DNA of 64,000 nt from Sideroxydans sp. (GTDB lineage: Bacteria > Pseudomonadota > Gammaproteobacteria > Burkholderiales > Gallionellaceae), in NCBI GenBank assembly GCA_024636935.1, contig JAGXGC010000035.1, forward strand, positions 1 to 64,000, given 5' to 3'. The position numbers and the translations under genes are program-made. The notes under the pieces were generated by a model. The model searched no databases. It was not told the DNA's origin and was given only the letters and a program-made list of their open reading frames with translations. Of this stretch, positions 21,135 to 57,987 are shown one piece after another (positions within the stretch are counted from its first letter, which is position 1; each line of letters opens with the position of its first letter).

Positions 21135-21211
21135 GGAGTGGTAGTTCAGTTGGTTAGAATACCGGCCTGTCACGCCGGGGGTCGCGGGTTCGAGTCCCGT
21201 CCACTCCGCCA
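21135..21211 (+). tRNA. tRNA-Asp(GUC), integration target
   Basis: 77 bases including CCA. The acceptor GGAGTGG pairs with CCACTCC. The anticodon loop CTGTCAC gives anticodon GTC (aspartate). The T arm is CGGGTTCGAGTCCCG. Its last 18 bases and one flanking A (21194-21212) recur exactly at 29861-29879, which marks it as the attachment site of the following mobile element. The tRNA is complete because the element supplies or retains the 3' end. Confidence 0.96.
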
Positions 21212-21212
21212 A
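21194..21212 (+). repeat. attL, 19-bp direct repeat
   Basis: GTCCCGTCCACTCCGCCAA, the T-arm end, acceptor strand and CCA of tRNA-Asp plus one A. Identical to 29861-29879. It is the left boundary of the mobile element, and the integrase ATG lies 89 bases further on. Confidence 0.92.
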
Positions 21213-21265
21213 TATATTGATTCGTAAGGGTTTTTAGCCATTTCGGGTCGGTAGTGATACAAAGT

Positions 21266-21295
21266 AGGGACACAACATAACTTGTTGCTGTCCCT
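21266..21295 (+). promoter_or_regulatory. Hairpin over the integrase ribosome-binding region
   Basis: AGGGACA-CAACA pairs with TGTTG-C-TGTCCCT (12 pairs, one bulged C, 5-base loop), and ends 5 bases before the integrase ATG at 21301. No free Shine-Dalgarno is seen in this gap, so the fold would occupy the region where the ribosome loads. It could limit integrase translation, particularly on read-through transcripts from the tRNA promoter. This is an inference from base pairing only. Confidence 0.45.
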
Positions 21296-21300
21296 TCTTT

Positions 21301-22710
21301 ATGCCCATAAATCTAGCGCATCACCTGAAAATCTCCCGTCACGGCGTTTTCTATTTCCGCATGGCAGTTCCTGCCGCATTGCGTCCATACATCGGCAAGC
21401 GTGAAATCATCAAGTCACTCAGAACCCGTGAACCAGCCGCCGCCAGAAAACTCGCTTATACTTTTGCCTCCCAAACATTCGCATGGTTTTCTACGATGGC
21501 TTATGACCCAAAGAGATTCAACCCGCTCGATGTCTCAACGTTCCCAACAGCCAAAGAGATTCGCCCATATGATATCGACTTGGCACGCGGCATCCTAAAA
21601 AGCGATGGGCCGGATGACCACGCCAGAATGATGGAAGCGCTGGCAATGATGAAATCCATGCCAGCATCACAGCCTGTAACGGCCCCAGCACCCGCGCAAT
21701 GGACTGAACCGACACCAGCCCATACCATGACCCTTTCTAAGGCGTTAGCGGCTTATCTGGCGACTATTCAAAACGATAAAACCAGAAACGCCACTGAGCG
21801 GGAAATCAAACGCTTCATAGAATGCTGTGGTGACGTCGAGATTCACAAAGTGAGTGGCGTTGATGTTGTGAACTGGAACGCAAAGTTATTGGCAGGTGAG
21901 CCAGACAAGAAAAGGAAAGCACAAGCTCCACGAACTGCCGACAACTCAATCCAGTTCCTACAAGGTTTGCTGAAATGGGCGCAAAGAAAAGAATACATAC
22001 ATCACAGCGCTAAGATTGTGACCGAGGGTAAAGCCAACCTAACTAAGAAGCAACGAACGAATGCCACCAAGGGCGCAGAAGCATTTAGCGCTGAGCAGCT
22101 CGTCAAGATTTTTGAGACTGAGATGTATAAGAGTTTCTACGGAGATAATCGTAGCCGCTATTGGTTTCCCTTGATAGCGCTATTCACAGGAATGCGAAAG
22201 GAAGAAATCGCTCAACTGACGCCCGCTGATATTAAGGCTGAGTACGGCAGCGGGGTTTACTACTTCGATATCAATCGAAACTGGGATAAGACTACGAAGA
22301 CAATCAACGCACTTCGCTATATTCCAATTCACGACACGCTGATGAAGCTTGGATTTATGGACTATGTGCTTAGCCGTAGAAGTGCGCCCACGCTATTTAG
22401 CGACACTGGCAATGCTGTGAGTCACGCATTTATTCGGTATCTCGAAAAAATCGGGGTGAAGGATAAGGACGATAAGCGCAGGATGGTGTTCCACTCATTC
22501 AGAGATACATTCAACAATGTATTAGCAACGCCAGCATTTAAAGTCCAAGAGCGTTTGCGCTATGCGCTGATGGGGCACTCAAAAGAGGGCGATACAAACG
22601 CCACAAACTACACGAAGCAAATCACGGTGAAAGAGAACAAGGAGTGTGGCATAGATTTCTTGGTTTTTGAGGAAACAGTGGCAGGTGTGACACACAGGCT
22701 GGATTTATAA
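21301..22710 (+). CDS. Tyrosine integrase with DUF6538-type N-terminus
   Basis: 469 residues. The N-terminal 60 residues (ISRHGVFYFRMAVPAALRPY and following) match the DUF6538 type found in tRNA-targeting island integrases. The catalytic domain has Arg in TGMRKEEIAQL, the H-x-x-R box in FHSFRDTFNN, the second His in LMGHSKEGD and the Tyr in NATNYTKQ. It recombines the 19-bp att repeats at the tRNA-Asp gene, which lies 89 bases upstream and reads in the same direction. The element may therefore use tRNA transcription for integrase expression. Intact. Confidence 0.93.
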   Translation: MPINLAHHLKISRHGVFYFRMAVPAALRPYIGKREIIKSLRTREPAAARKLAYTFASQTFAWFSTMAYDPKRFNPLDVSTFPTAKEIRPYDIDLARGILKSDGPDDHARMMEALAMMKSMPASQPVTAPAPAQWTEPTPAHTMTLSKALAAYLATIQNDKTRNATEREIKRFIECCGDVEIHKVSGVDVVNWNAKLLAGEPDKKRKAQAPRTADNSIQFLQGLLKWAQRKEYIHHSAKIVTEGKANLTKKQRTNATKGAEAFSAEQLVKIFETEMYKSFYGDNRSRYWFPLIALFTGMRKEEIAQLTPADIKAEYGSGVYYFDINRNWDKTTKTINALRYIPIHDTLMKLGFMDYVLSRRSAPTLFSDTGNAVSHAFIRYLEKIGVKDKDDKRRMVFHSFRDTFNNVLATPAFKVQERLRYALMGHSKEGDTNATNYTKQITVKENKECGIDFLVFEETVAGVTHRLDL

Positions 22711-22719
22711 GGAGCGAAC

Positions 22720-23397
22720 ATGGATAAAGTGTGTGCGATAGATTGGGGGCTGACTCTTGAATACATCAAGGTCGTGTTGAGTTGGCCACCAATGGCAGTA
22801 TTGATTGTCGCCGTAGTTATCGTCCGTTTTCAGAAGCCTTTGGAAGACCTGATAAATCGTATTGAGGAAGGCGATATTTTCGGTCAGACAATAAAAGCTC
22901 CACGGCCAGTTCAGCAGGTTGATAAGGTACAGGATAAGTTGGCTGAGGCGTCAAAAGGCCAAGCAGCCGAGGAAGCGGATGCCCCATTGCCGCCAGAACT
23001 ACTAGGTGACCCTAATGCTCATGCTGCGGTTGAGTGGGTTAAGAACAACCCTGCGCAAACTGTTATTGAGTATAAGAACTTAATGTTCAGCTATGGCGCA
23101 GAGAGGGTATTCAACCGTATTTATGGTACTCAGGTTGAGATGCTTGAATATCTGTCTCATTGTGAGAATCCTGTCACCTTAATGCAGCTCAATCCTTTTC
23201 ATGAGAGGCATCAGGCTATTGCTGGGAGCCATGAGTATTTGCTGAAAGATTATGTGGATTTCTTGGTGAACTTCTTGGTTGTTCAGCGCGAAGGTAGTGA
23301 AAATATCCAGCTCTATAAAATCACAGACCAAGGCATTGAGTTTCTTTCTTACATCAAGAAGCATTATCCGATGAACTGGAATCAGCGATTGTATTAA
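22720..23397 (+). CDS. Membrane-anchored protein with winged-helix-like C-terminus, unknown role
   Basis: 225 residues, AAGGAGCG Shine-Dalgarno, 9 bases after the integrase and so co-transcribed. One transmembrane helix (about 20-38, WPPMAVLIVAVVIVRF) is followed by a charged linker rich in Lys/Glu/Ala/Gln (about 60-95). The soluble C-terminal domain (about 110-225) ends NIQLYKITDQGIEFLSYIKKH, which resembles the wing and last helix of winged-helix DNA- or protein-binding modules. No family recognised. Position and anchor suggest a sensor or an element-maintenance factor, but nothing in the sequence proves either. Confidence 0.7.
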   Translation: MDKVCAIDWGLTLEYIKVVLSWPPMAVLIVAVVIVRFQKPLEDLINRIEEGDIFGQTIKAPRPVQQVDKVQDKLAEASKGQAAEEADAPLPPELLGDPNAHAAVEWVKNNPAQTVIEYKNLMFSYGAERVFNRIYGTQVEMLEYLSHCENPVTLMQLNPFHERHQAIAGSHEYLLKDYVDFLVNFLVVQREGSENIQLYKITDQGIEFLSYIKKHYPMNWNQRLY

Positions 23398-24034
23398 GAA
23401 AAGTTAAAAGTTTGACTTCCATAAGGATTCTGCTTCACTAGGGGTGTGGCGGGACAGAGAGAGGACGAGCGCTCTTTGATAAATGCGCGGGCGTGAGACC
23501 TAGCGGACAAGCCAGAACAACTCGGTGTTTTATGCGTCGCGTGAGTGTTGGGTGACCTTGTCCTTGACCCCTCCAACATTTGTAGCCTCGATTCGGGCAT
23601 CGGATTTTAGAGTTTGTGAGCGGTCAGAATGGAACGATACACAGCCGCATTGAGAGACTAGACGACAGACCAAGTATCGGGGGCGCTAATGTCCTGAACT
23701 GTTCGAGCCGGAGCGATTAGAACCGAACCGGTGCCAATATGTGGGTGGCCAAAGTCCAAACTTGTAAGCGAAATATTTTTTTCTCTTACATTTTTTGGGG
23801 AGACTTTGGCCGCACAGTGGGGGGCAAGAGACAAATCAAAGAGGGTCACCACGCCCATTATTCATAGTTGGGCAAGATTTATTCAGGATAGAGCAATACC
23901 CTCAGAAGTAAGGAACAGAAGAGCAAACCATAAGACGAGGCAAGAAAGCAAAACGCCCAAGCGCGTTCTAATCCATGCTTTACAACTTTCGCCCTACATA
24001 GCACCATGCGCCAGTTCATAAAACTGACCACGCA
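23398..24034. other. Non-coding stretch with a long imperfect inverted repeat
   Basis: About 640 bases without a credible gene; the open frames at 23394-23600, 23658-23858 and 23731-24021 lack start signals and protein character. The notable feature is 23747-23811: GGCCAAAGTC and GACTTTGGCC close a stem, CCAAA/TTTGG extends it past a small bulge, and TGTAAG/CTTACA forms an inner stem around an AT-rich loop. It may be a structured RNA or a protein-binding site ahead of the restriction enzyme. The ATG of that gene at 24035 has no Shine-Dalgarno. Confidence 0.5.
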
Positions 24035-26902
24035 ATGACACCACAACAGTTCATCAAAAAATGGAAAGATAGCCAACTCGGAGAGCGGGCAAGTTACCAA
24101 ATCCACTTTACTGACCTTTGCGCACTCGTTGGCGTTCCAGCTCCCACACCTGACAGCAAAGACACCTATTGCTATGAACGCGGAGCAACACGCACGGGAG
24201 CAGGTAGAGGCTGGGCTGATGTATGGAAGCAAGGACACTTCGCATTTGAGTACAAAGCCAGAGACCGAAACCTAGGTGATGCGTTAAAGCAGTTGATGAC
24301 ATACGCGCTTGCGTTGGAGAGTCCACCGCTGCTTGTCGTGTGCGATACACACATCATCGAAATCCACACGCATTTTACTAATGCCCCGTCCGAAGTTCAC
24401 ACCATCGCACTCGACGACATAGGCGAAACCTCTAACCTTGAAAAACTGCGCTGGCTGTTCAACTCGCCAGAGAAGTTCTACCCCAAACGCACAATCTCTC
24501 AAATCACAGAAGAAGCGGCGGGCAAGTTCGCCGCGCTTGCTCAATCCTTGAATAGCAGAGGACATAAGCCGCAAATCGTGGCGCACTTCCTTAATCAATG
24601 CCTGTTCTGTATGTTCTCCGAAGATGCGGGGTTGTTGCCTAAAAGGTTGTTTGAGCGCTTGCTGGATAAAAGTCAGACCGACCCCGACAAACTCTCGACA
24701 CGGCTTGAATCCTTATTTGTCTCGATGCGCAAAGGCGGCGACTTCGGCGCAGATGAAATCTCTTGGTTCAACGGTGGGCTATTCGAGAAGATAGAAGTCC
24801 TCCCGCTGACCACTGATGAAATCAAGATGCTCTTCGAAGCATCTAAGCTCGATTGGAGTGGGATTGAGCCATCCATATTCGGAACACTATTTGAGCGCGG
24901 CCTAGACCCTCAGAAACGCTCTCAACTTGGTGCGCACTACACTGACCAGCAATCAATCATGCGCATCATCAATCCTGTGATTGTTGAGCCTCTAACAAAA
25001 GAATGGGAAGCCGCACGCACTGAGATTGAGGGCAAGATAGCCAAGCGTAAGAAAAGCGGAGACAAGGCGGAGCGTGATGCTCGCGCCGTTTTCACCACCT
25101 ACCTTGAAAAGCTCCAAAACTTCAAAGTACTCGACCCTGCGTGCGGGAGCGGAAACTTCCTTTTCCTTGCCTTGCGTGCGTTGAAAGACCTCGAACACAA
25201 AGCCAACCTGGATGCGGAAGCCTTGGGGCTAAATCGGCAAATCAACATCGAAGTGTCGCCCGCCAATGTACTAGGGATTGAACTCAACTCATATGCCGCA
25301 GAACTTGCCCGCGTCACGGTGTGGATTGGTGAAATCCAGTGGATGCTCAAAAATGGCTACCCCATCCGCAAAAATCCTATTCTCCAATCGCTCGACCATA
25401 TCGAGAACCGTGATGCGGTGTTGAATGCCAACGGCACAGAAGCCAAGTGGCCTGTCGTCTATGCCATCATCGGCAACCCGCCGTTTTTGGGCGATAAGAA
25501 AATGCGCGGTGAGTTAGGCGATGACTATACCAATGCCCTGCGTAAGTGCTATGCCAGCCGCGTTGCGGGTGGTGCGGATTTGGTTGTTTATTGGTTTGAG
25601 AAATCACGAGCACACATTGAAGCAGGAAACTGTCAGCGAGCAGGGCTAGTGTCGACCAACTCCATTCGAGGAGGTGCTAACCAATCAACTTTGGCACGCA
25701 TTGGAGAAACAACTAAAATATTTAATGCGTGGAGTGATGAAGAATGGATTAACGAAGGCGCAGCCGTGCGTGTGTCGTTAGTTTGCTTTGGAGATGGAGG
25801 GGAAGCGAAACTGAATGGCATATCTGTTGATGCGATTCATGCCGATTTAACCGCCGGTGAAGGATTGAATCTCACACAAGCAAAGGTGCTTAAATCCAAT
25901 GCGGGAGTTGGATTTATTGGAACTCAAAAAAGCGGGGACTTCGACATTGATGGCAGTTTGGCTCGCACGTGGTTGAGACAGCCCAACCCGAATGGGAAGT
26001 CCAATAGCGATGTGGTTCGCCCTTGGGTCAATGGCATGGATATTACACGCCGCCCATCAGATACTTGGATTGTTGATTTTGGTGTCTCGTTAAGCGAACA
26101 AGCGGCTTCCCAATATGAAATCCCGTTTGAGCATATTTCTTCAGCAGTTCACACGCATCTCTTATCAAAGCGTGCTGAATGGCTCTCGCAGGGGAAGAAT
26201 ACCAAGCACCTTGATAAGCAAATCCAGACTTGGCATTTGCTGTGGTGTACACGTGAAGAGATGCGCAAAGCTTTGAATGGTAAACGTCGCTATATCGGGA
26301 CTCCCCGAAATGGTAAGTATCGTTTGTTTAAGTGGCTAGATATAACTGTTCTGCCTGATTGCCAAGTTGTGGCTATTGCTCGTGATGATGACATTAGCTT
26401 TGGTATCGTCCATTCGCGCTTTCACGAACAGTGGGCATTGCGAGTCTGTTCTTGGCTCGGAGTCGGTAATGACCCCCGATACACTCCAACAACTACGTTT
26501 GAAACCTTCCCCTTTCCAGAAGGGCTAACGCCAGACCTGCCAGAGGCGAGTTTTTCTAATCCAGCTGCTGAGGCAATAGCCACCGCAGCACAGGAGCTAA
26601 ACAAGCTGCGGGATAACTGGCTTAATCCTATCGAATGGGTAGATTGGGTGCGCACACCCGAAGAAGAAAAAGCGGGCTATCCCTTGCGCCCTGTTGCCAA
26701 AGTAGGACATGAGGCCGACTTAAAGAAGCGCACCCTCACCAATCTATACAATCTGCGCCCTGCGTGGCTGGACAATGCCCACAAGTTGCTAGATGCGGCA
26801 GTCGCCAAGGCTTACGGCTGGAACGACTACACACCAGAGATGCCCGATGAGGAAATCTTGCGCCGTTTGCTTGTTTTGAATCTGAAATCTGCCCACTCTT
26901 AG
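24035..26902 (+). CDS. MmeI-like type IIG/IIL restriction-modification enzyme
   Basis: 955 residues, one polypeptide with both activities. The N-terminal nuclease has a PD-(D/E)xK core: Asp62, then Glu72-Tyr-Lys74 in FAFEYKARDRN, followed by the family's QLMTYALALESPPLLVV. The gamma-class adenine methyltransferase has the SAM motif DPACGSGNF (367-375) and the catalytic motif NPPF (481-484). The C-terminal part (about 640-840) is the target-recognition region, including VRPWVNGMDITRRPSDTWI. It would methylate host DNA at its site and cut unmodified phage or plasmid DNA. No separate specificity or methylase gene is needed. It is the main cargo of the element and looks intact. Confidence 0.9.
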   Translation: MTPQQFIKKWKDSQLGERASYQIHFTDLCALVGVPAPTPDSKDTYCYERGATRTGAGRGWADVWKQGHFAFEYKARDRNLGDALKQLMTYALALESPPLLVVCDTHIIEIHTHFTNAPSEVHTIALDDIGETSNLEKLRWLFNSPEKFYPKRTISQITEEAAGKFAALAQSLNSRGHKPQIVAHFLNQCLFCMFSEDAGLLPKRLFERLLDKSQTDPDKLSTRLESLFVSMRKGGDFGADEISWFNGGLFEKIEVLPLTTDEIKMLFEASKLDWSGIEPSIFGTLFERGLDPQKRSQLGAHYTDQQSIMRIINPVIVEPLTKEWEAARTEIEGKIAKRKKSGDKAERDARAVFTTYLEKLQNFKVLDPACGSGNFLFLALRALKDLEHKANLDAEALGLNRQINIEVSPANVLGIELNSYAAELARVTVWIGEIQWMLKNGYPIRKNPILQSLDHIENRDAVLNANGTEAKWPVVYAIIGNPPFLGDKKMRGELGDDYTNALRKCYASRVAGGADLVVYWFEKSRAHIEAGNCQRAGLVSTNSIRGGANQSTLARIGETTKIFNAWSDEEWINEGAAVRVSLVCFGDGGEAKLNGISVDAIHADLTAGEGLNLTQAKVLKSNAGVGFIGTQKSGDFDIDGSLARTWLRQPNPNGKSNSDVVRPWVNGMDITRRPSDTWIVDFGVSLSEQAASQYEIPFEHISSAVHTHLLSKRAEWLSQGKNTKHLDKQIQTWHLLWCTREEMRKALNGKRRYIGTPRNGKYRLFKWLDITVLPDCQVVAIARDDDISFGIVHSRFHEQWALRVCSWLGVGNDPRYTPTTTFETFPFPEGLTPDLPEASFSNPAAEAIATAAQELNKLRDNWLNPIEWVDWVRTPEEEKAGYPLRPVAKVGHEADLKKRTLTNLYNLRPAWLDNAHKLLDAAVAKAYGWNDYTPEMPDEEILRRLLVLNLKSAHS

Positions 26903-27131
26903 GCAGAACCCCAAGTACCTTACAAAATAACTCGGGAATACTGCGACTATTGGTCGTTGTGTTCCTGTTTCTTGTCTCTGAATTGTTTGCTCCTTTCCAT
27001 ACCCCCATTTCATTGGCCTTTGTGTCAGTCATGAATTGAGGGATTTGAGCGTAAGTCATTGAAAGAGATGGACAAAATAGACATTTTTTGATATGATTCA
27101 TCCCTCAATAAAAACAAGGGAGGAACTAACA

Positions 27132-27665
27132 ATGAAAGGAAATAAGCGTTTAAATCAAAACCTCGTCAAGGCAGTCAAACAAGGGAATGTTGAGGAAGTT
27201 AGGCGATTGTTAGAGCGAGGGGCAAATGTCCTAGCAAGGTGTCACGATGGCCATTCAGTTCTTGAACACGCATTGTTTCATTTTGAGAACAAAGAAATAT
27301 CTGAGTTGCTATTACAGAATGGAGCTGACCCTGATGTTTTGATTGGGTGCAACAAAGATATTCCTGCCGTTTTATCGGCTGTTGCGTTCTGTGACGGCGA
27401 GGACCCATATGCTGCCCGAGCAGTGTACCTTTCATCAAGATTTACTAAACCAGAAGATAGGGTTTCAATGTTGATTCGGTATGGCGCAAATCCTTACCTT
27501 TTTGGAGGGCGCGAGAACAATGCGTTATATATCGCGCAGGAAAGTGGGCGAGAAGACCTCGTTGAGCTATTAGTGAACGGTAGAGCAGAAGTAGAAAAGA
27601 ACGCATTGGAAATGGTGCTGCCAGTATTGCCGGAGGTGGCTAGCCGTCCAAGGGCTCGTTTATGA
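27132..27665 (+). CDS. Ankyrin-repeat protein
   Basis: 177 residues. ATG 27132 is preferred to 27093 because GGGAGGA precedes it. Ankyrin units are visible: NLVKAVKQGNVEEVRRLLERGANV (about 9-32), a second at about 40-65 (SVLEHALFHFENKEISELLLQNGADP), a spacer, and units at about 110-160 (MLIRYGANPYLFGGRENNALY and SGREDLVELLVNG). Ankyrin repeats bind proteins; no enzymatic domain is present. It sits between the restriction enzyme and the mobilization genes. It could modulate the restriction enzyme or act as an inhibitor, but that is conjecture. Confidence 0.8.
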   Translation: MKGNKRLNQNLVKAVKQGNVEEVRRLLERGANVLARCHDGHSVLEHALFHFENKEISELLLQNGADPDVLIGCNKDIPAVLSAVAFCDGEDPYAARAVYLSSRFTKPEDRVSMLIRYGANPYLFGGRENNALYIAQESGREDLVELLVNGRAEVEKNALEMVLPVLPEVASRPRARL

Positions 27666-27670
27666 ACCAA

Positions 27671-28042
27671 CTAATCGCCCCTAGCTTCTGACTGTGTGAA
27701 GCCTTGGGCGGAGGCGCTTTCCTTTATCTCATGCCGCTGGGTCTTCAACAACCCAGCGCCGTAGCGCTCCCAGCCTTTCAGCTTGTCCGCTTCTTTCTCG
27801 TTGTGAATCTGTAACAACGCCCCCAGCAAAATCTCATCCGAAAGCATATTGCCCAACTTCTCTCGGGCGAGGATGACCAATCCGCCGAGGCGGTATTTTT
27901 CCCGCGCTAGTTCCTTGCGTTCTATCTCCCGCTCACGCGCAGAAATGGCCTTTTGTTTGCGTTGTAAGTCGGCAAGCTGCCTTTCCAACTTCTCCCGTTT
28001 TTGCTCAATCACATTGAGCCGTTGCGCATAGCTGTATCCCAT
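27671..28042 (-). CDS. TraD-like mobilization accessory protein
   Basis: 123 residues. The N-terminal half is a strong coiled coil (about 8-50, many Lys/Arg/Glu). It is followed by KYRLGGLVILAREKLGNMLSDEILLGALL, which matches the small conjugal transfer TraD type (R/K-x-L-G-G-L-V then L-L-G-A-L-L). These proteins accompany MobA/MobL relaxases and help assemble the relaxosome at oriT; they are unrelated to the TraD coupling ATPase of F. The gene diverges from the relaxase across a 185-base gap that holds the candidate oriT. It converges on the ankyrin gene with 5 bases between stops. Confidence 0.8.
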   Translation of the reverse strand: MGYSYAQRLNVIEQKREKLERQLADLQRKQKAISAREREIERKELAREKYRLGGLVILAREKLGNMLSDEILLGALLQIHNEKEADKLKGWERYGAGLLKTQRHEIKESASAQGFTQSEARGD

Positions 28043-28154
28043 AGGTTCTCCTTCTCAGTGGCTACCTCTTATCTGATAGCAGGTTTTTTTAATCGCGCAA
28101 CCCATTGACTTAATTAAATATTCAACTATGGATTGTAAGGCAGCACAAAACTAA

Positions 28155-28209
28155 CAGACGCACTTAGGCAACTCTTACGAGTAGCCGAGCGCCGAGGTTG
28201 AAGCCTCGG
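28155..28209 (-). other. Candidate origin of transfer (oriT) with MOBQ-like nic site
   Basis: In the gap between the divergent TraD-like and relaxase genes, the minus strand carries TAAGTGCG (28166 down to 28159). This matches the core of the nic region of RSF1010-type (MOBQ) plasmids, TAAGTGCG/CCCT. As in those plasmids a short inverted repeat lies on its 5' side (ACTC-GTAA-GAGT, 28171-28182). A second hairpin, CCGAGG/CCTCGG, occupies 28192-28209, ahead of the relaxase Shine-Dalgarno. Motif, flanking repeat and gene context agree; nicking is not shown. Confidence 0.6.
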
Positions 28210-28227
28210 AGAAAGGACAAAGCAGGT

Positions 28228-29457
28228 ATGGCGATATTCCACCTCCATATTGACAGCTATCGGCGCAGCCGAGGCCGCACCGCTATCGGTGGCGCAGCCT
28301 ATCGTCGTGGCTTGAAAGCATCCTGCCCCGTGTCGGGCAGACGCTTTAACTTTCGCACCAAGGAGGAGGTCGCATTCTCAGAGTTCATCCCCGCGCAAGA
28401 CGACCTCACCGATTACAGCCAGTTATCAAACTTGCTGAATCTCTACGAAGCAATCGAACGCGCAGAGAAACACCCTCGCGCAACGCTTGGCCGTGAGATT
28501 GAAGCAGCCTTGCCCCACGAGTTGGCCCTGCCGCAGCAAGTCGAACTTGTGCGGGCGTTTGTGGCAGAGGTGCGCCAACGCTTTGGCGCAGAGCGTGCCT
28601 TTTTTGATTTTTCTATCCATGACAAACAGAACAACGCGCACGCCCATATTTGCATGGCCGAGCGTGAACAGTCCGCGCCCTTCGTCTTCGAGAAGACCAA
28701 GAGGCGTGATTGGGACGGGGAATCGTTCGTCAGTGCTTGCCGAGAAATATGGCAAGCCCAAACAAACTCCGCGTTAGAGCAAGCAGGAATCAATCAGCAA
28801 GTGGATTGCCGCTCACATGCTGACCGAGGGATAAAGGTCTTGCCCTCGTTTCACGAAGGCAAAGCGGCCTATTTTAATAGCGAGGTGAAGAAGATGAACG
28901 ACATCATCCAACAGACGAACCAAGAGATAAAAGCGCGACTCATTATTCCTGAGGAAGTCATCGACATAGAAGAACTGCGAACGACCGAAACGCCTGCGGT
29001 CTGCTTCAATCCCGACGACATGAAAGTCGAGAGAGCGAAACTGGCTGGCTTTCCTTATAGGTTGGCGCGGAAGCAATACGAGGGATTCTCTATCCTTGGC
29101 CTTTCTTATATCAACTACAAGCACCCGAAGCGAATAACGCTCTGGTTCGACGACCGCGCAAGCGTGGTTGATATGGGGAGTCGCATCACGGCAAGCGGTG
29201 GAACGGCCAAGGCCAATGCTGAGCGGGTGGTCGAACTTGCCCGCATGAAAGGCTGGAAGCGCATCGTCTTTTCAGGGGATGAGGAATATTTGCGAGAGGC
29301 ATTTAGACAGGCACTAGCGAAGGGGCTTGAAATCGCCACGGATGGCGAGAGACAGCAAACACTGTTGAAAACGATACTGGCGGAGATTCAGCCACAGGCA
29401 GGGGCGCAGGTTCTACCGATACCGACCAATACACCAAGGAAAGGGATGAGGCTATGA
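28228..29457 (+). CDS. MobA/MobL-family relaxase
   Basis: 409 residues from ATG 28228 (MAIFHLHIDSYRRSRGRTA); an upstream TTG at 28198 is in frame but is not needed. The relaxase domain (1-230) has the N-terminal SRGRTAIGGAAYR block and the metal-binding HUH-type motif NNAHAHICMAE with His138 and His140. It nicks oriT and pilots single-stranded DNA. The C-terminal part (about 275-385: GFPYRLARKQYEGFSI then ITLWFDDRASVVDMG) resembles the LPD7-type domain found attached to relaxases and primases. The next gene overlaps by 4 bases. Confidence 0.9.
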   Translation: MAIFHLHIDSYRRSRGRTAIGGAAYRRGLKASCPVSGRRFNFRTKEEVAFSEFIPAQDDLTDYSQLSNLLNLYEAIERAEKHPRATLGREIEAALPHELALPQQVELVRAFVAEVRQRFGAERAFFDFSIHDKQNNAHAHICMAEREQSAPFVFEKTKRRDWDGESFVSACREIWQAQTNSALEQAGINQQVDCRSHADRGIKVLPSFHEGKAAYFNSEVKKMNDIIQQTNQEIKARLIIPEEVIDIEELRTTETPAVCFNPDDMKVERAKLAGFPYRLARKQYEGFSILGLSYINYKHPKRITLWFDDRASVVDMGSRITASGGTAKANAERVVELARMKGWKRIVFSGDEEYLREAFRQALAKGLEIATDGERQQTLLKTILAEIQPQAGAQVLPIPTNTPRKGMRL

Positions 29458-29696
29458 AGATACCAACGAAAGAAGAGATTGCCAGACGGTTAGAGCGTAA
29501 GCGACAAAAGAAAGAAGCAGCCCAAGGGGAGGGCGGTGGCTTTACATATATAGACGAGGAAGAAATCAACTCCTTACACAGCCTCAACCAACTGGCAGAG
29601 CTGGAATCTGTGAGAGAGGGAACGCGGCGGCTGGTGGGGGAGATAGCAAAGGCGGAGGCAGGATTGCGCAAAGTGTGTGGAGGAATGAAAGGCTGA
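29454..29696 (+). CDS. Small charged protein coupled to the relaxase
   Basis: 80 residues. The start overlaps the relaxase stop (ATGA), with GATGAGG just before it, so translation is coupled. The sequence is rich in Lys/Arg/Glu with probable helices at both ends ([16 protein letters not shown] and about 45-75). No family recognised. It is probably a relaxosome accessory, judged only from position and charge. Confidence 0.65.
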
Positions 29697-29860
29697 GCCC
29701 CATTCAAGTTCTGACTTGTGCGATAATGCGCGGCCTTTCGGTGAGGGGAAACAACCAAGGGATACAAAGAGGGGGTACAAACTTTGTATCAGTGGCTTTC
29801 CCACTTTCTGTAAGTTGTTGTATTGTTTGGCCTTGAAATTTAATGCGGAGGGATTTGGGT

Positions 29861-29879
29861 GTCCCGTCCACTCCGCCAA
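29861..29879 (+). repeat. attR, 19-bp direct repeat of tRNA-Asp 3' end
   Basis: Exact copy of 21194-21212. The bases before it do not extend the tRNA match (GGGTGTCCC here, CGAGTCCC in the tRNA), so the boundary is sharp. The original tRNA terminator follows within 5 bases. Confidence 0.92.
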
Positions 29880-50629: not shown

Positions 50630-52300
50630 ATGGCACAAGGTCAATATGTAATGTCCATGCTCCGCGTGAGCAAGATCGTTCCCCCCAAGCGTCAGATCAT
50701 CAAAGACATCTCCCTCAGCTTCTTCCCCGGCGCCAAGATCGGCCTGCTGGGTCTGAACGGCTCGGGTAAATCCACCGTGTTGCGCATCATGGCGCAGCAG
50801 GACAAAGAATACGACGGCGAGGTGCAGCACCTGCCCAACATGAAGATCGGTTACCTGCCGCAGGAACCGGTGCTCGACCCCACCATGACCGTGCGCCAAG
50901 AAGTCGAATCCGCCCTCGGCGAAGTGATGGAAGCGCAAGCCAAGCTGGACGCCGTGTACGCCGCCTATGCCGAAGAAGATGCAGACTTCGACGCACTCGC
51001 CGCCGAGCAAGCGCGTCTGGAGAACATCCTCGCCGCTTCCGGCAGCGATACCGAACACCAGATGGAGATCGCCGCCGACGCGCTGCGTCTGCCCGAGTGG
51101 GATGCGGTGATCGGAAAACTTTCCGGTGGTGAAAAGCGCCGCGTCGCGCTGTGCAAACTGCTGCTGGAAAAACCGGACATGTTACTGCTCGACGAACCCA
51201 CCAACCACCTCGATGCAGAATCGGTGGAATGGCTGGAACAATTCCTCGTGCGCTTCCCCGGCACCGTAGTCGCCGTCACCCACGATCGTTACTTCCTCGA
51301 CAACGCCGCCGAATGGATCTTGGAACTAGACTGTGGCCACGGCATCCCGTGGAAGGGCAACTACTCCAGCTGGCTGGAGCAGAAGGGCGAGCGACTGGCA
51401 CAAGAACAGAAGCAACTCGACGCGCATTCGAAAGCGATGAAGCAAGAATTGGAATGGGTACGTCAGAACCCCAAAGCGCGTCAGGCCAAATCCAAAGCAC
51501 GTATCGCACGCTTCGAAGAACTGAACTCGCAAGAACACCAAGCGCGTAACGAAACGCAAGAAATCTTCATCCCCGTCGGCGAACGTCTGGGTAACGAAGT
51601 CATCGAATTCGAGAACGTCAGCAAAGCCTACGGCGACCGTCTGCTCATCGACGACCTCAGCTTCAAGATCCCGCCCGGCGCCATCGTCGGCATCATCGGC
51701 CCCAACGGTGCCGGTAAATCCACACTGTTCCGCATGATCACCGGCAAAGAGACACCGGACAGCGGCACCGTCAAGATCGGCCAGACCGTGAAGATCGCCC
51801 ACGTAGACCAAGCGCGTGATTCACTCGAAAGCGACAAGACCGTGTTCGACGCCATCTCCGGCGGCAACGACATCTTGACCGTGGGCAAATACGAAACCCC
51901 GGCGCGCGCCTACATCGGTCGCTTCAACTTCAAAGGTGGCGACCAAGCAAAACTCGTCGGCCAACTATCCGGTGGTGAACGCGGCCGTCTGCACTTGGCG
52001 CAAACACTCATCGCAGGCGGCAACGTACTGCTGCTAGACGAACCCTCCAACGACCTCGACGTGGAAACCCTGCGCGCACTGGAAGATGCCTTGCTGGAGT
52101 TCGCCGGCTGCGTCGCCGTCATCTCCCACGACCGCTGGTTCCTAGACCGTATCGCCACCCACATCCTCGCCTGCGAAGGTGATTCCAAGTGGACGTTCTT
52201 TGATGGTAACTATCAGGAATATGAAGCGGACAAGCGCAAGCGTTTGGGTGAAGAAGGCGCGAAGCCTAAGAGGATTCGGTATAAGCCGATTAGCCGGTGA
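50630..52300 (+). CDS. ettA: Energy-dependent translational throttle protein EttA
   Basis: 556 residues, ABC-F type: two ATPase domains and no membrane part. Walker A motifs are GLNGSGKSTVLR and GPNGAGKSTLFR, and signatures are LSGGEKRRVALCKLLL and LSGGERGRLHLAQTLI. The Walker B motifs are LLLDEPTNHLD and LLLDEPSNDLD. The linker between the domains is the charged PtIM (about 240-320). It binds the ribosomal E site and gates the first elongation step according to the ATP/ADP ratio. ATG 50630; starts at MAQGQYVMSMLRVSK as in the family. Confidence 0.96.
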   Translation: MAQGQYVMSMLRVSKIVPPKRQIIKDISLSFFPGAKIGLLGLNGSGKSTVLRIMAQQDKEYDGEVQHLPNMKIGYLPQEPVLDPTMTVRQEVESALGEVMEAQAKLDAVYAAYAEEDADFDALAAEQARLENILAASGSDTEHQMEIAADALRLPEWDAVIGKLSGGEKRRVALCKLLLEKPDMLLLDEPTNHLDAESVEWLEQFLVRFPGTVVAVTHDRYFLDNAAEWILELDCGHGIPWKGNYSSWLEQKGERLAQEQKQLDAHSKAMKQELEWVRQNPKARQAKSKARIARFEELNSQEHQARNETQEIFIPVGERLGNEVIEFENVSKAYGDRLLIDDLSFKIPPGAIVGIIGPNGAGKSTLFRMITGKETPDSGTVKIGQTVKIAHVDQARDSLESDKTVFDAISGGNDILTVGKYETPARAYIGRFNFKGGDQAKLVGQLSGGERGRLHLAQTLIAGGNVLLLDEPSNDLDVETLRALEDALLEFAGCVAVISHDRWFLDRIATHILACEGDSKWTFFDGNYQEYEADKRKRLGEEGAKPKRIRYKPISR

Positions 52301-52314
52301 TGAGAGATGATGAA

Positions 52315-52348
52315 GCGCTGTTTACTTCAGTTAATTTGTAAACGGCGC
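52315..52348 (+). other. Imperfect hairpin between ettA and the DUF5677 gene
   Basis: GCGCTGTTTAC pairs with GTAAACGGCGC (11 bp, one G-U pair) around a 12-base loop. It starts 15 bases after the ettA stop and ends 10 bases before the next ATG. No T-run, so a weak terminator or a leader hairpin. Confidence 0.4.
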
Positions 52349-52358
52349 GAGTTTAATT

Positions 52359-53174
52359 ATGAGCGACCTATCCGATAAATCCAGCGCATCCTTTAAGGAT
52401 AGTGGCTACTTGTCAGATATGGAGTCTTGGCGCTCAAGAATCAGAGTGAATCATCCACTCTGGTTTGCACTAGTACAAGAAATTAGTAGCGCAGGGATGA
52501 ACATTCTTCAAGATGCTCGTCCATCGAAGACCGATGATCAACAACTCTTAGTCGTATTGCTTCATGCACGCGCATTGCAGTCGTTTCAGGCTAGTTTATT
52601 GCTGGCAGAGCGAGGGTTGATTTCAGATGCTCGGACGTTATCTAGGTGTGTTTGGGAAGATGCCTTTTGCATTGGGGCTTTATGTGAAAAGCAGCAAGAG
52701 TATTTAGGTAAATTTGAAACTAAGCATCAAAAACATCGGCACGGGGTCGCCAATGCATTTCTTAATAAAGATAACTTGCGCAACGGACTCTCGGTCGAGA
52801 GTATTGAAAAGCTTCACAAGGTTGTAGACGAGACAAAGGATGCAAAAGATAGTTGGAAGTGGGACCAAGTCGCTCACGATGCAGGGATGGGCGCACTCTA
52901 TGACACTCACTACCGGAATTTATCGAGCGATGCCGCGCACCCCACACTCGAATCGTTAACACGCCATGTCGAAACTGACATTGAAGGAAATATTACCCAA
53001 ATGAGCTGGCTGCCGAACGAGACAGACTTGGACGACACACTCGCTGTCGCTTGCGCGGCCTATCTTTGTGCTGCCGTACGCACAGCAGAGCTATTTCACT
53101 TTTCTGATATTGAGGAAAAATTACAACAATTGACTAGAAGGTATGTGGAATTATCAAAAGGGTCTTTGACGTAG
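52359..53174 (+). CDS. DUF5677-type protein
   Basis: 271 residues, all helical, no signal peptide. The block LLVVLLHARALQSFQASLLLAERGLISDARTLSRCVWED (about 65-105) matches DUF5677 proteins, which are of unknown function and often found in accessory or defence-associated DNA. Codon use is more AT-rich than ettA before it. It stands alone. A decayed 3' copy of the exchanger gene follows at once, which suggests it was brought in by the events that built this mosaic region. Confidence 0.7.
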   Translation: MSDLSDKSSASFKDSGYLSDMESWRSRIRVNHPLWFALVQEISSAGMNILQDARPSKTDDQQLLVVLLHARALQSFQASLLLAERGLISDARTLSRCVWEDAFCIGALCEKQQEYLGKFETKHQKHRHGVANAFLNKDNLRNGLSVESIEKLHKVVDETKDAKDSWKWDQVAHDAGMGALYDTHYRNLSSDAAHPTLESLTRHVETDIEGNITQMSWLPNETDLDDTLAVACAAYLCAAVRTAELFHFSDIEEKLQQLTRRYVELSKGSLT

Positions 53175-54319: not shown

Positions 54320-55348
54320 TTACATCAGCCAGCGTTTTTTCATCATTAGGTAAGAAAGATAAAGCAGCAGCGTTCCCAACAGAATCAGGTAGCTCCAGTC
54401 AAAAAACATATTCGTCCATTGGCCGTCTTCAAGCAGTATCTTTTGAAGCGGGTCATAAAGTTGGTAGGACGGCAGGAAGGGGGCGATGGAGGATAGTTTT
54501 TGCGAGACATCGGACATCGCTGTCGGCAGCAAGTGTGGCAAATAAAAGATAACGCCCAATGTTCTTGCGCTGGCCTGATTGCGGCACAGAAAACCCAGGA
54601 ATATCCCGTAGGCGCTGAAACAAAAACTGCCTGCGAGGATGAAGGCGACATAGTCGGTGAGGGGTACCGGGCCGAATTGCCCCAGCATATGGAGAAACAG
54701 CAGCGCGATGATGGTCAGGGACATGCCCAGAATCAATTTGGCGATCAGCCATTGAATCTCGGTTATCGGGGTCTGGAGCAGCGCTAAAAGCAATTTCTTT
54801 TCTTTTTCCTCGGCGACTTGCGCAGGAAGAATGATGAAGCCGACGAGCAGAACCAGCATCATGATCCAGGTCGGCAAAGTCTGTCGTTGAAAGCCACCTT
54901 CGTGCAGTGAGTTGATTTCGGTGATCCAATCCGGCCCACTTCGTTCGGCCGCTTTTTGCAAGGCCGAGAAACTCCGCACCACGGCTATGGTATGCAGGGA
55001 GTCCTTTTTCAAGACCAGAAGTGCAAGGCCGCCGTTTACTTTTTCATTTCCCGTCAGCATCCCGTCTATCTTTCGGCCTTTCAGCAGACCGACGCCTTCG
55101 TCTTCGTTTTGCACCCATGTCACTTCAATGAGTTTTGTTGCCTTGATGCTGCCGGTGATCTCGGGTGAATAGGCGTAATTCTGTATGAGTCCGATTTTTA
55201 TTTTGCTTGCTTCCGCATTGGTTCCGTCTATCAGGTTTAAGGATGCGAATATGAATAGTGGAATAAACAGGATCAGAAAGAAGGTCTTGTTTTTGTATGC
55301 GATGGCGAGGTCGTTGAATACCAGTACCAGAATATTTTTCATCATCAT
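54320..55348 (-). CDS. ABC-2 type transporter permease
   Basis: 342 residues. One N-terminal helix (about 18-38), a periplasmic domain of about 130 residues, then five to six helices (about 165-335), the plan of ABC-2/NatB-like exporters. VGFIILPAQVAEEKEKKLLLALLQTPI is the typical cytoplasmic coupling segment (E-K-E-x-x-T/L). The ATP-binding gene precedes it with a 4-base overlap. Substrate unknown. The base composition and position between exchanger copies suggest acquisition. Confidence 0.85.
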   Translation of the reverse strand: MMMKNILVLVFNDLAIAYKNKTFFLILFIPLFIFASLNLIDGTNAEASKIKIGLIQNYAYSPEITGSIKATKLIEVTWVQNEDEGVGLLKGRKIDGMLTGNEKVNGGLALLVLKKDSLHTIAVVRSFSALQKAAERSGPDWITEINSLHEGGFQRQTLPTWIMMLVLLVGFIILPAQVAEEKEKKLLLALLQTPITEIQWLIAKLILGMSLTIIALLFLHMLGQFGPVPLTDYVAFILAGSFCFSAYGIFLGFLCRNQASARTLGVIFYLPHLLPTAMSDVSQKLSSIAPFLPSYQLYDPLQKILLEDGQWTNMFFDWSYLILLGTLLLYLSYLMMKKRWLM

Positions 55349-56025
55349 GAGTACAGCTCTTGATGGATATCAGATTGAAAATATTCCTGTGGTGATCCGT
55401 CGAAGATCAGGCAGCCTTCGTGCAGCACAAGGATGCGCGTCGCGAGGTTTCTGATCTCTTCAGGACGATGGGAGGTGAAGATGATGGTTTTTCCTGCGTC
55501 ATGCATCTTGTTCAGCAGGTGGTAGATCTCGCGGGTCATCTCGAAGTCCAGGCCGGATGTTGGCTCGTCCAGAATGAGCACCTCAGGATCCGACAATAGC
55601 GCGCGACCGATGTTCACCCTTTGCTTCAATCCTTTTGAGAGTGTCTGTACTTTGCTTTTTCGAAATGGCTGCAGATCGAATTCGCTCAGAATCTCTTCTA
55701 CCCGCAGAAAAGGGATTCGAGAAAGGAGGGCGAAGAGTTTGAGGTTATAAGCAACGGAGAAGAAGTCGAACAGGTTGGGGTCTTCCGGAATGAAGCCCAC
55801 GCTCCTGACAACCGCTGCCCGGTTCTTCAGATCAATACCGTCGATCATGACGTGACCGCCGTCCGGAAGTATCCAGTTCGCCAGCATTTTCAGCAGGGTG
55901 GACTTACCGGCACCGTTATGTCCGACAATGGCGATCAATTCGCCTTTGTCTACATCAAAGCTGGTCGGCTTAAGGCCTCGTTTTTGATCATAGAGTTTTG
56001 CAATATTGCGAATTTCAAGCTGCAT
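55345..56025 (-). CDS. ABC transporter ATP-binding protein
   Basis: 226 residues. Walker A is GHNGAGKSTLLKML, the signature LSKGLKQRVNIGRALL and Walker B VLILDEPTSGLD, with the switch His in TSHRPEE. It energises the permease encoded by the overlapping gene, forming an exporter of two half-modules. No accessory periplasmic protein is adjacent. The 18-residue peptide gene lies 72 bases upstream on the same strand and could share the transcript. Confidence 0.9.
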   Translation of the reverse strand: MQLEIRNIAKLYDQKRGLKPTSFDVDKGELIAIVGHNGAGKSTLLKMLANWILPDGGHVMIDGIDLKNRAAVVRSVGFIPEDPNLFDFFSVAYNLKLFALLSRIPFLRVEEILSEFDLQPFRKSKVQTLSKGLKQRVNIGRALLSDPEVLILDEPTSGLDFEMTREIYHLLNKMHDAGKTIIFTSHRPEEIRNLATRILVLHEGCLIFDGSPQEYFQSDIHQELYS

Positions 56026-56097
56026 AAGTTGTCGCTCTATCGTTGATAGTATTTTCGTGCGCGTCAGTTGTGCAGCTCAATCCATATTCTCGGGACG

Positions 56098-56154
56098 CTA
56101 TACAACCCTGAGTATCAGGACAACGAGAAGCACGACTAGTAATAGTTCAAGCAT
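56098..56154 (-). CDS. 18-residue hydrophobic micropeptide
   Basis: MLELLLVVLLVVLILRVV, then TAG. It is preceded by a perfect AAGGAGG five bases before the ATG, stronger than most Shine-Dalgarno sequences in the window. The peptide is one membrane-spanning helix with an acidic N-terminus and a single Arg. Position just upstream of the ABC genes, on the same strand, suggests a small membrane subunit, regulator or leader peptide. Whether it is translated cannot be told from sequence alone, and no homologue is claimed. Confidence 0.5.
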   Translation of the reverse strand: MLELLLVVLLVVLILRVV

Positions 56155-56556
56155 GATTACCTCCTTGAGTATGGGGACGATCTGATGAAAGCCCCCTGAT
56201 TCGATTTCAATTCAAAATGTGCATCAGATATGCAACATAGGTTCTTCAACGCCAGAGTTCTGTGCGCAAACGTACGGAGTGTCATAAATAGTAGAGAACA
56301 TACTGTGAGCTAACCCGCGTTTCCCGGACGGTTTGATTGGATACATCTGTTTGCGCCTCAGGTTCAGCCGGACTGAGATGGCCCAAGAACGTTCAGGGTC
56401 GGGTCTTGTGTTATGACATGCGAGAGCTAAAGGGCTCCGACGTCCCCCATCTTTAATAGTGCATGACATGGGAGTCCAATCTACTGAATTGTCATCCGCA
56501 TGCGTCTGGCATTATGAATTTCGCGGTTTGTGCCGCATCTCCACAAGGGCCGAATC
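56155..56556. other. Gap between divergent micropeptide and AsmA genes
   Basis: About 400 bases that must hold promoters in both directions. GCTAACCCGCGTTTCCCGG (near 56309-56327) recurs in diverged form near 58036-58054 (GCTAACCCGTCTTTCCCAG), so short repeats flank the AsmA gene. No gene, tRNA or terminator was recognised. Confidence 0.5.
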
Positions 56557-57987
56557 ATGCCAATGTCGAAATCGAAAAAGATCATTCTGTTTTCCATCGG
56601 CGGCATCTTGGTGCTGCTCGTCCTCATCGCAGTGACCTTGAGATATTTTGTGGATGCCGATGCCTACAAGCCCCGCTTGCAAGCGGCTGCCGCGGAGGCA
56701 CTGGGTATGGATGTCAGCATCGACGGGCGGCTGGGCATCGGCTTCTTTCCGGGCATGCAGCTCACCATGAATGATGTGCACATTCGAAACCAGGGCAAAG
56801 AGCTGGTTGTCGCAAAAGAAGTCAGGCTCGGAATGGAGCTTATGCCGCTATTCCAGGATGAATACCGCATCACGAATATCTCACTGATCAATCCCTCTAT
56901 CAGCATTGAGCTGGGCACTGACGGCAAGTACAACTTCGAGAAACCGCAGGCGGCCGGAACAAAATTACCCGCCGTGGACTTGGCAGAGATCGTTTTATCA
57001 GACGCGACGATCCTCTATGGGGATAAGCAAGCCGGAGGAGGTTTCGACGCAGGAGATTGCCAGCTGAGCCTGCAGCATCTGCTGCTTGCAGGCGGTGGCA
57101 CGGACATCATGAAGGATGTCTCTTTCAATGCGGAACTAAGCTGCGGCAAGATCCAGTCAAAGGACTACGCGGTGACCGATGTGAAACTCTCGGCCATAGC
57201 GAAAAGTGGCACCTTCGATTTCAAGTTGGATACGCCGGGGATCTTCGGTGGACAAGGTTCGGGGAACCTGCGGGTGGAATATTCCGGCGCAGAGCCGGTT
57301 TACCACGTTCGCTATTCTCTGCAGCAGTTCCGCATCGAGGAGCTGCTCAAAGCCCAATCACCGGAAACGATCGCGGAAGGGCCTATGGATTTCTCAATGG
57401 ATCTGAAGATGCAGGGCAGGACAGGGCAGGAGATGAAGCAGAGCGCGACCGGAGATGCCTCACTTCGGGGTGCAAACCTCACGCTCAACGGCCACGATCT
57501 CAATCTGGAGTTCAGCCGGTTTGAATCCAGCCAAAACTTCGACCTAGTGGATGTGGGCGCCTATTTCTTTGCTGGGCCTCTTGGCCTGGCGGTTACCAAA
57601 GGGTACGACTTTGCAAAGCTCCTTAAAGGTTCGGGCGGCGTCAGTCACATCCCCACGTTCGTCTCCCAATGGAAAGTTGAAAAAGGCGTGATGCATGCGC
57701 AGGATGTGGCGATGGCCACAAACAAGTATCGGATGGCACTCTTGGGTGGGCTCGACATCGCCAATGCACGTTTTGTTGACGTGTCGCTGGTGCTGCTGAA
57801 TCAAAAGGGCTGCGCCGTAGTGGAACAAAAGATCAAAGGCCCCTTTGAGAAACCGGTGGTGGAGCAACCGAATATTTTCACATCCCTCGCCGGACCGGCG
57901 ATCAAGCTGCTCAAAAAGGGAAGCAAACTTTTGCAAGGCGAAGAGTGCAAGGAGATCTACACCGGCACGGTGGCATCGCCGCGTTGA
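56557..57987 (+). CDS. AsmA-family protein
   Basis: 476 residues from ATG 56557; GTG 56530 and ATG 56563 are in frame. One N-terminal membrane helix (about 8-28, IILFSIGGILVLLVLIAVTL). Then the AsmA N-terminal block RPRLQAAAAEALGMDVSIDGR-like (here KPRLQAAAAEALGMDVSIDG) and a repetitive beta-rich body. AsmA relatives bridge inner and outer membranes and are linked to lipid or outer-membrane homeostasis. It is divergent from the ABC exporter. Shorter than E. coli AsmA (617), with no obvious C-terminal loss. Confidence 0.85.
   Translation: MPMSKSKKIILFSIGGILVLLVLIAVTLRYFVDADAYKPRLQAAAAEALGMDVSIDGRLGIGFFPGMQLTMNDVHIRNQGKELVVAKEVRLGMELMPLFQDEYRITNISLINPSISIELGTDGKYNFEKPQAAGTKLPAVDLAEIVLSDATILYGDKQAGGGFDAGDCQLSLQHLLLAGGGTDIMKDVSFNAELSCGKIQSKDYAVTDVKLSAIAKSGTFDFKLDTPGIFGGQGSGNLRVEYSGAEPVYHVRYSLQQFRIEELLKAQSPETIAEGPMDFSMDLKMQGRTGQEMKQSATGDASLRGANLTLNGHDLNLEFSRFESSQNFDLVDVGAYFFAGPLGLAVTKGYDFAKLLKGSGGVSHIPTFVSQWKVEKGVMHAQDVAMATNKYRMALLGGLDIANARFVDVSLVLLNQKGCAVVEQKIKGPFEKPVVEQPNIFTSLAGPAIKLLKKGSKLLQGEECKEIYTGTVASPR

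Follow-up and report, generated by a model that had tools for sequence, protein, structure and literature searches.

A predicted integrative mobilizable element carrying an MmeI-like restriction-modification enzyme in a tRNA-Asp gene of Sideroxydans, and relatives of its transfer module with exchanged restriction-modification types

Canonical integrative mobilizable elements (IMEs) bring their own relaxase and encode no protein of a type IV secretion system (T4SS); PMC5704250 states that none had been described in Proteobacteria by 2017 and lists type II restriction-modification (R-M) as a possible IME maintenance system. Defence systems on helper-dependent elements are discussed in PMC11389934. 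Mobilizable plasmids of the MOBQ group (MOBQ4, RSF1010/R1162; PMC6856555) have a relaxase of the MobA/NES kind and an accessory gene that adjoins the origin of transfer (oriT) and is transcribed away from the relaxase gene. Here we analysed a window of 64,000 nt from Sideroxydans sp. (Gallionellaceae; GCA_024636935.1, JAGXGC010000035.1, positions 1-64,000, forward strand) and describe an ~8.7-kb element in its tRNA-Asp gene. We read it, with a probability of about 0.88, as a complete IME that would move via a helper and that carries an R-M system; its excision and transfer are predicted.

Like canonical IMEs, the element has an integrase, attachment (att) repeats, a relaxase and an accessory protein, and no coupling or mating-pore protein was recognised among the open reading frames (ORFs) scanned; as an IME it is ordinary. 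It differs from the IMEs known from Proteobacteria by 2017 (PMC5704250) in being canonical; its relaxase is of the MOBQ type, and we do not claim it as the first. With the MOBQ plasmids it shares the kind of relaxase and the placement and direction of the accessory gene; unlike them it is integrated, no replication gene was recognised among the ORFs scanned, and its relaxase reaches only ~30-35% identity with the best of the plasmid matches listed (4,091 records, all below 60% identity and none covering 80%). The R-M enzyme has the nuclease, spacer, methylase and target-recognition domains of MmeI (PDB 5hr4) in the same order, with the motifs aligned; unlike MmeI it is carried on an IME, and its target-recognition part differs from those of the nine relatives compared. 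What is new is that the relaxase-TraD-oriT module recurs with different R-M types, and that a conserved folded block precedes the type IIG gene. Among open-licence PMC papers, judged by titles and the beginnings of abstracts, none described either an IME family in which R-M types are exchanged or a folded block of this kind.

The boundaries of the element are as follows.

21135-21211, plus strand: tRNA-Asp (GTC), the integration site, found by ARAGORN and Rfam; the whole gene lies beside attL
21194-21212, plus strand: attL, 19-bp direct repeat
29861-29879, plus strand: attR, 19-bp direct repeat

The initial annotation of this stretch had placed an ~8.7-kb element between exact 19-bp direct repeats in tRNA-Asp, and this was borne out. 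The two copies are identical and form a unique pair, with no third copy in the window when up to 3 mismatches were allowed; two copies occurred in 0 of 100 shuffles, and their start-to-start distance is 8,667 bp. The repeat corresponds to the 3' end of tRNA-Asp plus one base. When the 97-nt stretch from the tRNA-Asp start was compared with the next 20 kb, the longest exact recurring word was 19 nt, against a maximum of 14 nt in 200 base-composition shuffles. The GC content of the element was 0.492 versus 0.535 in the left and 0.553 in the right flank.

An empty tRNA-Asp site in relatives, which the initial annotation had called for, was found. We joined the 213 nt before and the 181 nt after the element into a 394-nt query and searched the 33 other genomes of the genus. 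A single alignment starting upstream of tRNA-Asp crossed the junction in 23 of the 33; in three (G127, G129, G155) the alignment begins within or near tRNA-Asp and runs on, and in the remaining seven (G126, G133, G139, G142, G143, G150, G153) the junction was not shown. The best match, G132, aligned over all 394 nt at 96%, and at base level its flanks are joined as predicted, with a single copy of the 19-mer, running directly into the right flank, in the 6 kb compared. Because this site is empty in G132, the element is an insertion that is missing from its best-matching relative.

Two contigs of G155 (L084, L085) break exactly at tRNA-Asp, with a copy on each, so that this genome is ambiguous between an occupied site and an assembly overlap. 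In G118 (L074:3843-4203), tRNA-Asp and 277 nt at 83% identity are followed by a truncated frame; the stretch takes in the attL side plus 37 codons from the integrase start, and is a scar that a close relative left at this very site. In another genus, the same tRNA-Val/tRNA-Asp site beside lon (L076 = G057, L077 = G041) holds distant integrases (~33%) adjoining tRNA-Asp. This site is an insertion hotspot.

The genes that would move the element are listed here, with lengths in amino acids (aa).

21301-22710, plus strand: tyrosine integrase, 469 aa (DUF6538 5e-16; PHROG integrase 4.4e-26)
27671-28042, minus strand: TraD-like mobilization accessory protein, 123 aa (PF06412 2.9e-9)
28156-28209, plus strand: candidate oriT, with the invariant AGACGCACTTAnGCA from 28156 and then the hairpin CCGAGG/CCTCGG at 28192-28209
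28228-29457, plus strand: MOBQ-type relaxase with a C-terminal LPD7 domain, 409 aa (MobA/MobL, PF03389 7.6e-36; LPD7, PF18821 6.6e-11); the frame is open from a TTG at 28198
29454-29696, plus strand: orf80, 80 aa, overlapping the relaxase end, 65% to L090:11266-11508

Where the initial annotation had seen a relaxase pair, there is one MOBQ-type relaxase with a TraD/PF06412 gene on the opposite strand and an 80-aa ORF. Relaxase residues Y25, E90, E92, H131, H138 and H140 were invariant in four elements (this one and the three close relatives described below), and structure matches were obtained to 4ht4 (1.1e-8) and 2ns6 (4.7e-7). These residues have counterparts in those named for R1162 MobA in PMC6856555 (Y25, two E, three H); the last histidine triad is spaced one residue tighter than in R1162 MobA.

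The block between the TraD-like gene and the relaxase aligns in all four elements, with AGACGCACTTAnGCA unchanged and the hairpin stem altered on both sides, hence compensated, in L090; we call it oriT-like from this conservation only. The pattern AGACGCACTTANGCANNTC occurred in 5 of 158 family genomes, one copy each (the four elements and G099), and the reversed control gave 0 matches. The G099 match was rejected as chance: it falls within an ORF of housekeeping type (hisS by eye), and no gene of the module lies close to it. Relaxase searches returned matches at E 1e-3 in 16 of 300 genomes of the order, the close ones being our own genome and G069 only, and two matches at E 1e-30 in 369 genomes of the class (own and G561). 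In viral contigs, none of the 175 pattern matches to the four-relaxase alignment was confirmed.

In the integrase, R299, K333, H398, R401, H426 and Y437 were invariant across six aligned sequences; we take them to be the R, K, HxxR, H and Y catalytic positions of tyrosine recombinases. Integrase matches were present in 9 of 158 family genomes, our own included. The best full-length relative, at 53%, lies beside tRNA-Ser in G078, where the contig stops 0.7 kb past the integrase, so that its partner genes are out of view; the oriT pattern had no match in G078. A distant (~30%) relative lies beside tRNA-Ser in the Ferriphaselus R-1 genome, on a different contig from the R-1 locus described below, and a scan of genome contigs with the integrase gave five pattern matches, none confirmed.

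Integrase, att repeats and an empty site are thus found together with a relaxase and an oriT-like site, and families of coupling and mating-pore proteins were absent among 9 ORFs scanned with Pfam and 7 scanned with NCBIfam. In the life cycle that we propose, the integrase would recombine the 19-bp core that the element has in common with the tRNA-Asp 3' end; the sequence shows that tRNA-Asp stays whole. A circle of ~8.67 kb would be excised, the MOBQ-type relaxase, aided by the divergently transcribed TraD-like protein, would nick the oriT block between their genes, and one strand would be led into the recipient through the conjugation machine of another element. From general R-M biology, the single-chain R-M enzyme would mark and guard host and element, and it would probably penalise loss of the element or exclude competitors.

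Several results weigh against this reading. The Pfam Phage_integrase match (5e-5) is under its cut-off, and the relaxase scores 127 bits where the NCBIfam MobQ cut-off is 200, which is why we use the label "MOBQ-type". No relative was seen with the window integrase and the window relaxase together; relatives of each were found apart, and the integrase-relaxase pair that the initial annotation proposed to look for was not seen as a conserved one, though the contig of the best integrase relative (G078) ends 0.7 kb beyond it. A VirB4-family gene, from the only T4SS family searched, was absent from the host assembly (94.9% complete), and no helper was found. This absence agrees with the helper dependence that had been suggested; it would equally suit a decayed integrative and conjugative element or integrated plasmid, that is, an immobile remnant of a larger conjugative element whose mating genes were lost. 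The G118 scar speaks for the same origin in that such elements do decay. We regard such decay as very improbable here, for the att repeats are exact, catalytic residues are kept in the integrase, the relaxase and the R-M nuclease, and no interrupted genes were seen inside the element, in line with the earlier remark that it lacks degenerate genes, the main ones being open. Locus L090 is smaller still, with 6.8 kb between 19-bp repeats and the same module, so that the compact form recurs.

The reading as a complete IME was extended by its relatives. A scan of genome contigs with a two-relaxase alignment returned 8 loci. Relaxase identity was 72, 54 and 50% in three of them, with no fewer than 383 of the 409 residues aligned; in the other five it was ~30% and the match was partial, and two of these (L093, L094), when compared with the window proteins, matched by relaxase only. 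The three close relatives are Gallionellaceae GS36 111 (L090 = G119), Ferriphaselus R-1 (L091 = G012) and Gallionella STB_51 (L092 = G069), equivalences that we checked by sequence. Their TraD-like proteins are 77, 59 and 63% identical to that of the window (L090, R-1 and STB_51, respectively).

All three relatives have R-M genes beside the module: a type IIG enzyme of the N6_Mtase + Methylase_S kind, unlike the MmeI-like enzyme of the window, in L090; type I restriction, modification and specificity genes in R-1; and type III mod and res in STB_51. Counting the window, R-M thus accompanies 4 of 4 elements, a small number in which the first element was chosen for having one. The integrases of the window and L090 have no detectable similarity, and the window integrase had no match in the R-1 or STB_51 loci; those of L090 and STB_51 are 35% identical, and R-1 has its own Phage_integrase gene. 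The sites differ as well. L090 occupies tRNA-Arg(CCT), with 19-bp repeats at 5221 and 11990; STB_51 adjoins tRNA-Arg(CCT), where only an 11-bp repeat was found; and no tRNA was found in the 21-kb R-1 locus. In these four elements the relaxase-TraD-oriT module is retained, and the parts exchanged among relatives are the integrase, the site and the R-M type.

Three further observations concern these loci and others. In R-1, the side of the relaxase away from the R-M genes holds a candidate defence gene (PDC-S60; L091:11462-14581), whose 1040-aa product combines metallophosphatase and STAND NTPase parts. In GS36 111, an FRG-domain gene (candidate defence family PDC-S15; L090:4241-4924) is found ~300 bp beyond the left repeat, outside the element. 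In G430 (L089:43-3255), a distant integrase of the window kind comes within ~1 kb after the C-terminal part of a relaxase.

The main cargo of the element is a single gene.

24035-26902, plus strand: MmeI-like type IIG R-M enzyme, 955 aa (MmeI domains; PADLOC IIG 1.2e-278)

The enzyme matched the MmeI structure 5hr4 at 2.9e-44, its D and E-x-K nuclease residues lining up with those of MmeI. The MmeI domain set and the nuclease and methylase motifs are present, the C-terminal domain model alone being under its cut-off, and cleavage and methylation are predicted. At E 1e-50, IIG relatives were found in 27 of 158 family genomes, our own included; the STB_51 genome has one too, on a separate contig from its module. 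We compared the enzyme with nine relatives, namely a second copy in the host and the eight best full-length ones. The target-recognition parts (581-700, 701-830) were 33-68% identical and the remaining parts 59-90%, which is the usual picture for a changing specificity. The second MmeI-like IIG of the host (L040:727-3726, minus strand; G000:C31, near a contig end) is 69% identical and has a different target-recognition part; no other protein of the window element matched in its 20-kb stretch.

Upstream of the IIG gene lies a 637-bp gap that seemed empty and in which the initial annotation overlooked a block of ~420 nt.

23440-23860, plus strand: conserved structured noncoding block (RNA or single-stranded-DNA element), best conserved at 23457-23844

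Positions 23457-23844 are 77% identical to L090:6550-6956. In both elements the block directly precedes the type IIG gene, its left neighbours are unrelated (orf2 in the window, the integrase in L090), and the two adjoining IIG enzymes have only a short methylase-motif match in common (E 0.006). Ungapped identity in the block was 317/415 (76%); in the relaxase, TraD and orf80 genes of these two elements, third codon positions gave 343/612 (56%). This excess in the block points to constraint. The 91% given for alignment A7 is mean column identity, which is not pairwise identity.

The two-sequence consensus fold of the plus strand had an energy of -105.4 versus -79.2 (standard deviation 6.4) for column shuffles (z -4.1, 0/200); that of the minus strand gave z -3.1 (0/200). 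Each of the 102 pairs is of a standard kind in both sequences and nine show two-sided changes, which 0 of 500 shuffles reached; slid alignments paired in 37-49% of cells. Because the fold was derived from these same two sequences, this control favours it. Single-sided variation affects nine pairs, in each case through pairs that include G-U on the plus strand. A coding origin was rejected on mismatches by phase of 33/35/30, stops in six frames of both copies and frame-breaking gaps. An origin as a repeated miniature element was likewise rejected, the block being single-copy in its own genome and present in 2 of 158 genomes.

A rival idea, on which these results bear, is that both elements inherited the block as a neutral remnant, for example of a decayed gene or of the end of an island, and that its pairing is a by-product. 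Only two copies are known, and the lone window sequence folds only mildly better than shuffles (plus z -2.0, 4/100 as good; minus z -2.4, 0/100), as such a remnant might. With identity well above that at third codon positions, nine two-sided changes, no broken pair and no coding signal, we consider this origin improbable.

We favour, with low confidence, a role as an RNA leader or as a single-stranded-DNA element used at entry: the block would most likely act as RNA or folded single-stranded DNA when the element enters a cell and R-M expression needs timing. Single-stranded promoters of plasmid leading regions (Frpo) are active on entry as a folded strand, and we liken the block to them by idea only. 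That it is specifically a DNA element working single-stranded, such as a single-strand origin or a promoter letting the R-M gene be read upon entry, is a real possibility, short of even odds. The element is expected to travel as one strand, in both elements the cargo gene comes directly after the block, the minus strand of the block folds better than shuffles and beats the plus strand in the 3' windows, and scans for promoters and terminators gave nothing useful, none being found that marks an RNA unit. Over the whole length, however, the plus fold is stronger, and the one-sided changes are those that G-U pairing on the plus strand accommodates.

A more ambitious proposal, which we hold as doubtful, is that the elements form a new minimal betaproteobacterial IME family with an interchangeable R-M slot, in which a single-chain IIG gene is preceded by a new ~420-nt structured module. 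This module, whether RNA leader or single-stranded-DNA promoter or origin, would set the timing of methylation and restriction on entry into a naive cell. As to the block itself, three results weigh against our main reading. In 140-column windows the plus strand reached z < -2 only from column 200 on, placing the signal in the 3' part. In the last two windows the minus strand (z -5.5, -5.8) outscored the plus strand (-4.1, -4.2), so that there is more certainty about structure as such than about the strand or the long-range pairs. The block was found in only two elements among the 158 family genomes (window and G119), by DNA search and by model R1 alike. In 349 genomes of the order, a sample that lacks G119, model R1 found only the window's own copy. 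The block had no Rfam match at the gathering score (best E-values 4.3 and 4.9) and no match in plasmid or phage records; in viral contigs, a 16-mer occurred in 35 contigs without extended similarity and two 18-mers in none.

The remaining features of the element are these.

21256-21264, plus strand: GATACAAAG, candidate integrase arm site, also present as one copy in the G118 scar
22720-23397, plus strand: orf2, 225 aa, no assigned function; N-terminal hydrophobic stretch by eye only
27093-27665, plus strand: ankyrin-repeat protein (Ank families ~1e-12); alternative ATG start at 27132
29761-29790, no strand assigned: two GATACAAAG copies in inverted order (starts 29761 and, inverted, 29782), candidate arm sites

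The three copies of GATACAAAG in the window all lie near the two ends of the element (expected 0.33; at least 3 in 1 of 100 shuffles). The integrase, single-chain R-M enzyme and ankyrin protein that had been annotated are all present by domain matches. Of the "membrane protein" annotated at 22720-23397, the ORF is present; it had no Pfam match above cut-off, with weak winged-helix hints below it. Relatives of orf2 were absent from plasmids and from 155 other family genomes, and its predicted structure was uninformative (pLDDT, the predicted local distance difference test, 34). Elsewhere in the window, positions 52001-53000 and 55001-57000 have a GC content of 0.49 to 0.50, below most of the window, and are possible further islands.

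Gallionellaceae and R-M together have little in print among open-licence PMC papers, judged by titles and the beginnings of abstracts. The family described here illustrates cleanly how a transfer module can hold on to its relaxase and oriT and still exchange its integrase, its site and its restriction system. A long-standing question is how a restriction system, on arrival, avoids cutting a new host that is still unmethylated. An element as compact as this one, expected to arrive as a single strand and carrying a one-gene R-M system with a conserved folded block just upstream, makes this question of R-M timing testable.

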